Source: Clostridia bacterium (GTDB taxonomy: Bacteria; Bacillota; DSM-12270; Thermacetogeniales; Thermacetogeniaceae). From it: a stretch of 57,266 nt of DNA. The stretch lies in contig CADDZA010000002.1 in the NCBI GenBank assembly GCA_902812435.1, positions 1 through 57,266 of the forward strand. The letters run 5' to 3'. This document shows positions 2,809 through 50,949 of this stretch, piece by piece. Position numbers and translations under genes: made by a program. Numbering within the stretch: position 1 is the first letter of the stretch; each line of letters opens with the position of its first letter. Under the pieces are notes generated by a model, which made no database searches, had not been told where the DNA came from, and saw nothing but the letters and a program-made list of their open reading frames with translations.

Positions 2809-3912
2809 CTAAGTTCCTGCCTTTTGTTCATCGAAAAATGCCTTGTAAGCTATAACTATAGCGGGGCCCAGGATAATACCCCAAAACCCAAAAAGTGAGA
2901 GTCCAAAATAGAGTGCCATTAGTGTAGTAAGAGGATGAAGCCCAATACTTTGGCCAACTATCTTTGGTTCCAGGAGTTGCCTTACCACTACGATTATACC
3001 ATATAGAACCAGGAGACCAATCCCCAGGCGCAGGTTTCCCGAAATGAACAGCCAAATACTCCAGGGAATGTATAGGGAGCCGGGTCCCAAAACGGGTAAA
3101 AGGTCAAACAAAGCTATTACAACTGCCAGAATATGCGCGTAACTGACACCGAGGATTGTCAATCCTATTAAACTAATAAAACCTGATATGCTGATTAAAA
3201 CCAGCACCGCTTTCAAGTAGCCGAACATAGCCTTGTTTAGGCTTGCTACCATCCTGATGAAATTGGGCTGCCACTTAACAGGTATGAATTTTATTGTACT
3301 CTTTTTGATGAGATCGAAATCGCGTGCGAAAAAGAAACTTGCAATTATTGTAATAATTAAGAGAATAAAGTAGTTTGGTAGTGATGTTACAATATGAAGG
3401 AGTTGAGTCAAGAACATTTTGGTTAAATTCTTGATTACATCGAAAACCTGCCAAACGTTCCCGACAGTATTCTGCACAATATCCGGGGGAAGGTGCAGGT
3501 TGATCAATAAAATGCGGAACCTTTCCAACAGCAGGTTAATGTTTAGGTTTCCGATATTTTCAGAAAGTGTACCAAGAACCGCTGAAAGCTGGATCAGTTC
3601 ACGGATAAGGTTGGAAACGAGAAGATATAATAAACCTCCAATTATGGATAGGAAAACGACCAGAGAAAACAGTGCTCCCCAGGTGCGGGAAAGATGAACT
3701 TTTTTTTGTAATAAGATTATCATCGGGTTAAGTAGTGTTCCGAAGAGGTAAGCAACAAAAAAAGGAAGAGCAACTTTGATCCCGGCCGTGAGCGAGTGCT
3801 CAAAAAGCGGCCAGAAATATTTCACGAAAAAGTACAGCCCCGCAACAGCCAGGATTGTGATTACGATTTTTAAGAGCCATAAGAGCATCTTCTCTATAGC
3901 TTGTTGAGACAT
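2809..3912 (-). CDS. AI-2E/YtvI-family polytopic membrane permease
   Basis: About 367 residues with seven to eight hydrophobic segments. The C-terminal block has the family pattern VVRQLLEPKIVGQSIGLHPL followed by two glycine-rich helices. This places it in the AI-2E transporter superfamily, closest in appearance to YtvI-type proteins of spore formers. The transported substrate is unknown. The longest frame starts at a TTG at 3927, but the ATG at 3912 is preceded by TTGAGGAGTGGAAGC, where GAGGAG serves as the Shine-Dalgarno sequence. It is inserted between cdsA and dxr, which are adjacent in B. subtilis. Family call is firm, function is not. Confidence 0.8.
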   Translation of the reverse strand: MSQQAIEKMLLWLLKIVITILAVAGLYFFVKYFWPLFEHSLTAGIKVALPFFVAYLFGTLLNPMIILLQKKVHLSRTWGALFSLVVFLSIIGGLLYLLVSNLIRELIQLSAVLGTLSENIGNLNINLLLERFRILLINLHLPPDIVQNTVGNVWQVFDVIKNLTKMFLTQLLHIVTSLPNYFILLIITIIASFFFARDFDLIKKSTIKFIPVKWQPNFIRMVASLNKAMFGYLKAVLVLISISGFISLIGLTILGVSYAHILAVVIALFDLLPVLGPGSLYIPWSIWLFISGNLRLGIGLLVLYGIIVVVRQLLEPKIVGQSIGLHPLTTLMALYFGLSLFGFWGIILGPAIVIAYKAFFDEQKAGT

Positions 3913-48122: not shown

Positions 48123-48941
48123 TTACAGAGACAACCCACCTCTTTTTTCTCTGCGGCGCCCCCTTTCCCCTTTTTTCTCTTTCGTAGCCTCCAGGCTTGC
48201 TTTAAGGGCTTCAACAAGATCAAGCACCTTTGGTGCGGGAGCGGTTGGAGGAACTGCAATTTCCTGTCCCGCTATCTTTGCATCGATTATCTTCTTGAGG
48301 GAGATGCGATACTCATCCTCGTATTTTTCCGGACGAAAATCTCCTGCCAGGTTTTCAATGAGATTTATAGCCATTTTGATTTCATTCTCGTGGAGTTTAA
48401 CATTTTTCCGGAGTTCAGGGATTTCATCTAAAGATCGTATTTCATCGTGATAATACATTATAGCCATCAGCAAGCAATCATTGTAAACCCGTAAAGCCAC
48501 AAGAGATTCCTTGTTGCGGAGTCTTGCCTTGGCAATGGCGACCCGTTGTGTGTTGCGCATGGCATGGAGCAACAACTGATAGGCTTTCTCCCCGCCTTCA
48601 TTGGGAGCGAGGTAATAAGGCTTTGCGAAATAAATCGGGTCTATTTCTACCAATTTAACAAAATCCAAGATTTCAATGCTGTGCAGGTTTTCACCCGGGG
48701 TGGTCAGGAGTTCCTCCTCGACGATTATAAACCTACCCTTTACATACTCATAGGCCCTTTCAATGTCATCCTGTGAGACAACCGTCTCACAGTTGGGACA
48801 CTTTCTCTCGTAAACCAGTGGCGTATGACACTTCTTATGCAGGAAACGGAATTTGTAGTCATGCTCCTCCACGGCGGAGTAAAGCCTGATAGGTATGTTT
48901 ACCAAACCGAAACTGATTGTCCCCCGCCAAAGGGGCCGCAT
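48123..48941 (-). CDS. ku: DNA end-binding protein Ku (bacterial NHEJ)
   Basis: Bacterial Ku binds broken DNA ends and recruits LigD in non-homologous end joining. About 272 residues from the ATG at 48941, six bases after GGGGGG. The Ku beta-barrel begins MRPLWRGTISFGLVNIPIRL and contains VYERKCPNCETVVSQDDIER, FAKPYYLAPNEGGEKAYQLL and ALRVYNDCLLMAIMYYHDEI. The C-terminus is basic and low complexity. No ligD is in this window, so its partner must be elsewhere. Ku is not part of the Bacillus order here and looks like an insertion in the dprA-rnhB block. Confidence 0.95.
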   Translation of the reverse strand: MRPLWRGTISFGLVNIPIRLYSAVEEHDYKFRFLHKKCHTPLVYERKCPNCETVVSQDDIERAYEYVKGRFIIVEEELLTTPGENLHSIEILDFVKLVEIDPIYFAKPYYLAPNEGGEKAYQLLLHAMRNTQRVAIAKARLRNKESLVALRVYNDCLLMAIMYYHDEIRSLDEIPELRKNVKLHENEIKMAINLIENLAGDFRPEKYEDEYRISLKKIIDAKIAGQEIAVPPTAPAPKVLDLVEALKASLEATKEKKGERGRRREKRGGLSL

Positions 48942-48947
48942 TAACAT

Positions 48948-49392
48948 CCCCCCTTCATTTTCTGTTAGCCTTAGTCTGCCCTGAAAATGTTCAGGTCTAT
49001 CCTTGCGCTTGCTCCCGGACTCCGGTTTAACTCGCCCTAAGACTTGTCGCAGACGGCAGCCGACCGGCTCCTATGACGCCATCCATGGCGCATAGTCGCC
49101 TAGCTCAACCTCCTGTTTCGCTTCGGCTGCAGTTAGCTGCTCCTTCGTCAAGGGCGAGTAACAACCTCCGTAGGTCGCTGCGCCTGCAAGGATAAACCAC
49201 TATTTTCATTCTTTTGATGGTGCCGCTTGGGCGGCATGAGCGTCTGCCACGGATCAACAGGATAATACAATCAATCAAGTAATCGAAGACACCCACAACT
49301 TATGCACTCTTATTGAAGCGCTAAAAGCAGGAACAGCATTTTTAATAAAGAATAGATATTAGGTAAGAAGACAGTAAGAGAGGGAATAGACA
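48948..49392. other. Divergent ku-comM intergenic region with a nested imperfect palindrome
   Basis: A 445-base gap between divergent genes with no convincing open frame. It holds a hairpin CCTGAA-AATG-TTCAGG (48980-48995), then a nested set of inverted repeats: ACTCGCCCT (49030-49038) with AGGGCGAGT (49151-49159), GCAGCCGA (49056-49063) with TCGGCTGC (49123-49130), and at the apex CTATG-A-CGCCAT with ATGGCG-CATAG (49071-49095). A further hairpin TGCCGC-TTGG-GCGGCA lies at 49221-49236. The layout fits a structured RNA, a palindromic repeat element, or a regulatory site. See findings. Confidence 0.6.
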
Positions 49393-50949
49393 TTGTTGGG
49401 AATTATCAACAGTTGTTGCTGTTTGGGAATGGACACCAATTTAGTAAGGGTCGAAGTGGATGTTTCACCCGGGCTCCCTTCTTTTACAATCGTAGGTCTC
49501 CCGGATCCTGCCGTTCGCGAGTCAACCGAGAGGGTACGGGGCGCAATTAGAAACGCCGGTTTTGAATTCCCTCTCAAAAGAATCACGGTCAATTTGGCTC
49601 CGGCTGATCTGAGAAAAGAGGGTTCCCTTTTTGACCTCCCGATAGCGGTGGGAATTCTTGCTGCTACAGAGCAGGTTTCACGGGAAAAAGTCGCCCAATA
49701 CATTTTTGTCGGCGAGTTATCCCTTGATGGGACTGTTTGTCCGGTACCGGGCATTCTTCTGATGGCAGGTAACATAGTGAGGGAAAGTGCCGGTTCAACC
49801 CTTATCGTACCTCTCAGCAACCTGGAAGAGGCTTCTTTGGTACAGAATATTTCAGTTCTCGGAGGAAGTAATTTAGGTGAGATCATTAGCTTTTTAAGAG
49901 GTGAAGGTTCCCTCCATGAAGGAATTTCGGATTTTGCTGTAGAAAAAATGAATACATTAGCTAAGACAGTATCCAATGGATATCCCGATTTCGCGGACGT
50001 GAAGGGGCAAGAAAAGGTGAAGCGCGCCCTTGAAATCGCAGCGGCGGGAGGTCACAATGTGCTGTTAATCGGCCCCCCAGGAACCGGAAAAACGCTGCTG
50101 GCAAGGCGGCTTCCATCCATCATGCCTCCCTTGACATGGGAAGAGGCTCTGGAGGTAACGAAAATCTATAGCGTTGCGGGTCTGCTACCAAAAGACAGCC
50201 CCTTAATAACGACACGACCTTTTCGTGCACCCCATCATACCGCCTCTGTAGCGAGTATTATTGGAGGGGGGAGAATACCCCATCCCGGTGAGGTCAGCTT
50301 TGCATCCCACGGCATTCTTTTTCTGGACGAATTACCGGAATTCAACCGGGATGTACTTGAAGCGCTGCGTCAGCCTCTTGAAGAGAAAGTTGTTACAGTA
50401 TCCCGGGCTGCTGGTTCCTTTACCTATCCCGCCAACTTTACATTTGTGGGAGCGATGAACCCCTGTCCGTGCGGGTATTTAGGCGATCCCAAAAGAGAAT
50501 GTACCTGTACGCCTCACCAGGCCCAGCGCTACCGCAACCGTATCTCCGGCCCTATTCTCGACCGCATTGACCTGCATGTGGAAGTGCCCCGAATGGAATT
50601 GAAGGAACTTGCACAAAGCAAACAAGGGGAGCCCTCTTCAGAAATAAGAAAAAGGGTGATAAAAGCCAGGGAGATACAGCGGGAACGCTATCAAGATGAG
50701 GGGATTACTCAAAACTCGGATATGCATAACAAGCAGATAAAAAAATATTGTAAATTGAACAAGGAATCTCAAGACCTGTTATATAATGTTTTTCATAAAT
50801 TAAATCTCAGCATGAGAGCCTTTGACCGCATCCTGAAAGTAGCGAGAACAATTGCCGACCTGGATGCATCAGAGCAGATCAAGTCTATACATCTCGCGGA
50901 AGCCGTCCAGTACCGGCTTTTCGATCGCCCGCTTGATACCGGAGCTTAA
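49393..50949 (+). CDS. comM: ComM/YifB-family Mg-chelatase-like AAA+ ATPase
   Basis: ComM is a hexameric helicase that promotes branch migration during integration of transforming DNA. 518 residues starting at a TTG (49393 or 49396) after AGAGGG. The N-terminal Lon-S5-like domain contains VEVDVSPGLPSFTIVGLPDP and KRITVNLAPADLRKEGSLFD. The AAA+ core has Walker A GPPGTGKTLLARRLP near residue 226, HHTASVASIIGGGRIPHPGE and Walker B GILFLDELPEFNRDV. A zinc-binding loop CPCGYLGDPKRECTC and the C-terminal Mg-chelatase domain follow. It is the first gene transcribed on the plus strand. Confidence 0.95.
   Translation: MLGIINSCCCLGMDTNLVRVEVDVSPGLPSFTIVGLPDPAVRESTERVRGAIRNAGFEFPLKRITVNLAPADLRKEGSLFDLPIAVGILAATEQVSREKVAQYIFVGELSLDGTVCPVPGILLMAGNIVRESAGSTLIVPLSNLEEASLVQNISVLGGSNLGEIISFLRGEGSLHEGISDFAVEKMNTLAKTVSNGYPDFADVKGQEKVKRALEIAAAGGHNVLLIGPPGTGKTLLARRLPSIMPPLTWEEALEVTKIYSVAGLLPKDSPLITTRPFRAPHHTASVASIIGGGRIPHPGEVSFASHGILFLDELPEFNRDVLEALRQPLEEKVVTVSRAAGSFTYPANFTFVGAMNPCPCGYLGDPKRECTCTPHQAQRYRNRISGPILDRIDLHVEVPRMELKELAQSKQGEPSSEIRKRVIKAREIQRERYQDEGITQNSDMHNKQIKKYCKLNKESQDLLYNVFHKLNLSMRAFDRILKVARTIADLDASEQIKSIHLAEAVQYRLFDRPLDTGA

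Follow-up and report, generated by a model that had tools for sequence, protein, structure and literature searches.

What is the long palindrome that lies between the divergent genes ku and comM of a clostridial genome, and what does it do there? The stretch of DNA analysed here (the window, 57,266 nt) is contig C2 of the draft assembly of a Clostridia bacterium of the family Thermacetogeniaceae (genome G000; 1.95 Mb in 141 contigs, 85% complete); in a comparison of Ku, its closest named relatives were Syntrophomonadaceae metagenome-assembled genomes and Syntrophaceticus. A preliminary description had placed a nested imperfect palindrome at positions 49024-49167, and proposed a structured RNA, a palindromic repeat or a regulatory site shared by both genes. 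Our results establish that the element is an inserted repeat carrying an RNA of the TwoAYGGAY family (RF01731), with covarying GGA hairpins; the first two proposals therefore both apply to it.

Every inverted-repeat arm that had been claimed was found in its place, including the innermost pair (CTATGACGCCAT at 49071 and ATGGCGCATAG at 49085), and GGTT at 49024 and AACC at 49163 could extend the stem (other arms in Table 1). The predicted minus-strand fold of positions 49010-49180 reached −82.5 kcal/mol, versus −58.9 ± 4.0 for shuffled sequences (z = −5.9), and that of the plus strand −68.1 versus −51.1 ± 4.0 (z = −4.3), with no shuffle as stable as the native fold on either strand. The claim that the region is far more ordered than other gaps is accurate for the whole element and not for every 150-nt tile of it: in a blind scan of the window with fixed 150-nt tiles the element ranked high, and the top tile lay elsewhere, inside a coding gene, partly because fixed tiles do not frame the element. 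As had been stated, no open reading frame (ORF) explains this order, the longest overlapping one having 63 amino acids; we found no convincing gene in the region, and a tRNA search of it yielded none.

An Rfam search of the window at the gathering threshold gave no match. In a search by E-value, the minus strand aligned with the full length of RF01731 (Table 1), and six other copies in the same genome, 79-87% identical to that of the window, scored 47.6-51.5 bits, over the cut-off (the gathering threshold) of 43 bits. Since these sister copies exceed the cut-off, we assign the repeat family to TwoAYGGAY and treat the copy in the window as a homologue scoring below the threshold. We surveyed 399 genomes of the phylum that were at least 90% complete, admitting the window's own genome despite its 85%: TwoAYGGAY was over the cut-off in 34 and matched at E <= 0.001 in 50, and none of 14 control genomes had a match. 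All six scored candidates matched in many genomes, so the RNA is multi-copy there too.

Covariation was examined in an alignment of one sequence from each of the 34 genomes plus eight copies from the window's own genome, for which RNAalifold predicted the two hairpins and nothing else. Over the nine pairs of these hairpins, 92.5% of the cells were paired and 122 cells had changed on both sides. The covariation score was 0.739, versus a mean of 0.181 for shuffles (none of 500 reached it) and at most 0.181 for slid partners; the structure scored was predicted from the same alignment, which favours the score somewhat, and the excess is large. Among own-genome copies, compensatory changes occurred in 9 of 38 predicted pairs, reflecting few subfamilies. 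GGA was present in both loops in all 34 genomes, preceded by CA and mostly followed by YG, the two GGA being 25-32 nt apart (median 29). What defines the family, two adjacent GGA-loop hairpins within a closing stem and supported by covariation, was thus found and, because the GGA loops are kept while the stems covary, we conclude that the RNA is the unit of selection.

Comparison of positions 48955-49260 with their own genome produced 55 matches including fragments, many with 85-97% identity over 200-275 bases; about 26 copies carry the full core, and several directly abut the end of another copy. The closed genome G005 has 9 hits. Insertion is evident from a sister genome, G002 (contig C69, locus L217), where the counterpart of 48910-48980 (93% identity) abuts that of 49242-50500 (90%, 1265 bases) with a 7-base overlap, GTCTGCC. 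From this empty junction, our genome holds 268 extra bases, whose exact ends are ambiguous within a direct repeat of 7 bp, GTCTGCC (copies at 48974-48980 and 49242-49248). The palindrome does occupy the interval first given for it, which is too narrow for the repeated unit, and the hairpins noted on either side are present, not as separate extras but as the ends of that unit (Table 1). A second insertion is seen in locus L026, occupied, versus L163, empty, with CTGCCCTG flanking both sides. Another locus of G002, L168, was discarded as the empty site since its comM-side homology spans only about 30 bp, whereas both sides match in L217. At the same spot beside ku, genome G001 (L051) shares the right end and differs in the interior.

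Target repeats are 7 bp here and 8 bp at L026, and in both cases they run into the GGCAG with which the element itself ends; in most copies no more than an AG is shared, and nearly all left flanks end in AG. As GGCAG closes nearly every copy regardless of its flank, this may reflect target preference rather than duplication. According to gene calls from a simple codon-usage script, all 26 copies tested in their own genome and all 13 tested from G002 lie between predicted genes, as do 40 of the 41 from other genomes. Between codirectional genes, the copies of G000 are more often antisense (13 vs 3, p = 0.02), as are those of G000 and G002 together (17 vs 4, p = 0.007; for example L026 and L016), and in G000 divergent gaps hold eight copies and convergent gaps one. 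Antisense orientation is no general property, considering the 14-14 split with sense among the 41 copies of other genomes, and we draw no mechanism from it. A T-box leader (L013:654-871) and a cobalamin riboswitch (L033:1510-1877), both above Rfam thresholds, occur near element copies.

Each tip of the carrier frame forms a hairpin (GCCGCC..GGCGGC and CTGAA..TTCAG), and further inside lies an inverted repeat, TATCCTTGC/GCAAGGATA. Alignment revealed the core in three settings. Types A and B share the frame just described, the core being inverted in B, and type C has another frame, with ends of GGTGAAATTTAAG. Frames mostly measure about 248-275 bp with the core, 113-117 bp without it and 427-463 bp with another module. 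Orthologous sites can differ between genomes in their interior, and smaller palindromes are inserted in loops. Many copies, short length, lack of an ORF and inverted repeats are the traits of a miniature inverted-repeat transposable element (MITE), and the element has them all. Two further observations concern these frames. A second cargo of about 260 nt, for which we identified no family, is repeated in the same carrier frame (L024, L010:3480-4010, L015:4980-5460, L021 and L030). Smaller palindromes (CCCCGCACTCAAAGG... and CCCGGCACTCACCGAAA...) take the place of hairpin 1 or of the base in copies of TwoAYGGAY and differ between sister genomes, with nested examples at L036:7400-7850, L037:1980-2420, L033:1980-2360, L181 and L152.

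The loops of the RNA point to the protein CsrA. The CsrA consensus obtained by systematic evolution of ligands by exponential enrichment (SELEX) is RUACARGGAUGU, its GGA lying in a loop of six bases, the repeat of the small RNA (sRNA) CsrB is CAGGA(U/A/C)G, and one CsrA dimer bridges sites 10-63 nt apart (PMC7652899). Family loops, CA(N)GGA(Y)G, fit both the consensus and the repeat; those of the window are ACAGGAGGU, with one departure, and CCAUGGAUGG. The window's own genome encodes a csrA with the RNA-binding residues L4 and R44, adjoining fliW. Moreover, csrA was detected in 48 of the 50 genomes matching TwoAYGGAY at E <= 0.001 versus 244 of the other 349 (Fisher p = 2.3e-5) and, counting by genus from the survey tables as a partial control for phylogeny, in 37 of 39 genera with the RNA versus 161 of 231 without it (p = 6e-4). 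We regard the association of TwoAYGGAY with csrA as established. TwoAYGGAY had already been put forward, without validation in that work, as a CsrA-binding RNA, among the first from outside the Gammaproteobacteria (PMC4333381), and in a 2025 paper the motif is described as 'relatively unexplored' (PMC12199142).

We regard it as fairly probable that the element is a TwoAYGGAY RNA that binds CsrA and that a MITE-like palindromic carrier has dispersed in many copies. The window holds one copy of this MITE-like repeat, with the RNA as its cargo, and a transposase would move the carrier. The RNA would be transcribed either along with ku or on its own as a short RNA, and a single CsrA dimer would hold both loops, one on each of its faces. 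Copies throughout the genome would jointly act as a CsrA sponge, and CsrA would gain control of any gene whose mRNA leader contains a copy, as would be the case for ku. We infer transcription, binding, and the sponge and leader effects.

Several points weigh against this proposal. The window copy scores 37.6 bits, below the 43-bit cut-off, and one position of its loop 1 (AGGAG) does not follow the motif. No CsrA was found at E <= 10 in three RNA-bearing genomes, all incomplete drafts: G019, which belongs to the smaller set, and G183 and G378, the exceptions among the 50. Co-occurrence of csrA and TwoAYGGAY could arise from shared phylogeny rather than function. The known CsrA antagonist in Clostridia is a protein, FliW, and fliW is present here. 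SELEX preferred short stems, and some stems here are long. Finally, a scan of the region for promoters and terminators gave weak promoter-like matches and no terminator, for which reason a terminator role of the element was rejected.

The strongest alternative is that the element is a parasite at the DNA level only, that is, a palindrome of the MITE or repetitive extragenic palindromic (REP) type whose hairpins act in single-strand transposition, the RNA structure and the GGA loops being incidental or retained for the sake of the transposase. Its repeated, intergenic copies without an ORF, with hairpins near both tips, mostly without a clear target duplication and with other palindromes nested inside, are what such a parasite would look like. 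However, carrier ends change completely across genomes while the two GGA loops stay, the covariation is located in the cargo, it is not evident why a DNA hairpin should retain GGA on a single strand, and the csrA association is left unexplained. We consider this alternative possible but rather unlikely.

The cargo might instead serve the mobile element as its own guide or recognition RNA, comparable to a bridge RNA or omega RNA, as its residence in mobile carriers, in either orientation within the frame, would allow. Yet among frame-end pairs in about 1.4 Mb of G000, G002 and G005, a part of these genomes, we detected neither a transposase or nuclease gene between the paired ends nor an autonomous transposon with the same ends. 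The sole Y1 transposase of the genome (L143:1444-2247, contig C18), which resembles a REP-associated tyrosine transposase (RAYT), is flanked by other repeats, GGGGACGGTTCT, and the conserved loops are constant, without the variation expected of guides, making a guide very improbable. As a mobiliser of the element, this RAYT-like gene was dismissed, being flanked by those repeats and without linkage to it; G001 and G002 also have one RAYT-like gene each.

Lastly, the element shares the strand of ku and ends about 30 nt ahead of its start codon, so that transcription from upstream would make it part of the ku leader, but a local cis-regulatory ku leader or ku/comM divergent operator selected at this site is most unlikely, as the same spacer of G002 and the ku-comM gaps of L053 and L054 lack the element and dozens of other sites contain it. 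Pfam supports both neighbouring genes, as first described, and the shared regulatory site specific to them is left unsupported by the empty spacer of G002. In that genome, L217 (around 3300-3500) contains a short 5' piece of ku beside the comM-side spacer, with a full ku on another contig, which suggests a rearrangement at the site.

Table 1. Positions in the window of the element, its parts and the neighbouring genes.
Feature	Position	Strand	Basis and remarks
Whole inserted repeat unit, 268 bp	48976..49243	-	Empty site in G002; frame ends paired at 269 bp
TwoAYGGAY (RF01731) match, full model 1-168	49017..49173	-	37.6 bits, E = 1.9e-4 in 501 bases
Outer stem ACTCGCCCT (49030) / AGGGCGAGT (49151)	49030..49159	-	Sequence, folding
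Stem GCAGCCGA (49056) / TCGGCTGC (49123), closing the two-hairpin domain	49056..49130	-	Sequence, folding
Hairpin 1, loop ACAGGAGGU, GGA 49113-49111, CsrA-site-like	49103..49121	-	Sequence; stem covariation, 34 genomes
Hairpin 2, loop CCAUGGAUGG, GGA 49084-49082, CsrA-site-like	49071..49095	-	Sequence; stem covariation, 34 genomes
Inner carrier edge, inverted repeat TATCCTTGCGC (48998) / GCGCCTGCAAGGATA (49180)	48998..49194		Alignment; conserved in frame types A and B
Left-tip carrier hairpin GCCGCTTGGGCGGC	49222..49235	-	Alignment, frame-end pairing, sequence
Right-tip carrier hairpin CCTGAAAATGTTCAGG	48980..48995	-	Alignment, frame-end pairing, sequence
ku	48123..48947	-	Pfam Ku, E = 8e-50; RNA strand of the element reads toward ku, ~30 nt upstream
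comM (Mg-chelatase ChlI family), divergent from ku	49393..50949	+	Pfam

Among known systems, the closest is TwoAYGGAY RNA as described in 2010 by Weinberg, with the same two-hairpin domain, an end-to-end model match and the same strand; there it appears as a probable RNA of unexplained function, of the cis-regulatory type in Rfam, and the passages found do not present it as a multi-copy inserted repeat in changing carriers (PMC2864571). Like the sponge sRNAs CsrB and RsmZ, the element has loop GGA fitting CAGGA(U/A/C)G, at a spacing that permits one dimer across two sites; unlike them, it has two strong sites rather than many, occupies many loci instead of one sRNA gene, and occurs in Clostridia, where FliW is the antagonist known. 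With REP sequences and bacterial interspersed mosaic elements accompanied by RAYT it shares short, intergenic palindromes in many copies, but it is longer, we saw no GTAG tag, and the single RAYT-like gene has GGGGACGGTTCT repeats at its sides. MITEs and non-autonomous derivatives of the insertion sequences IS200/IS605 are likewise short and devoid of ORFs, with inverted repeats or hairpins at both tips and clean insertions, although here we found no related transposase in the 1.4 Mb examined and no consistent target duplication.

The RNA family and the CsrA idea are already published; multi-copy insertion, changing carriers and the csrA association are new here. TwoAYGGAY has been without an established function since 2010, and to it we add three testable facts, namely that insertion has dispersed the RNA in many copies, that carriers change while the GGA loops stay, and that it occurs almost only with csrA. 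More tentatively, a non-autonomous mobile family may be spreading high-affinity CsrA sites in clostridial genomes, which would create a distributed, evolvable Gram-positive sponge and new CsrA-controlled mRNAs, with a cargo that moves between unrelated carriers. If CsrA does bind, this would show that mobile elements rewire a regulator that acts globally after transcription, and the CsrA antagonists considered in Clostridia would no longer be limited to FliW.
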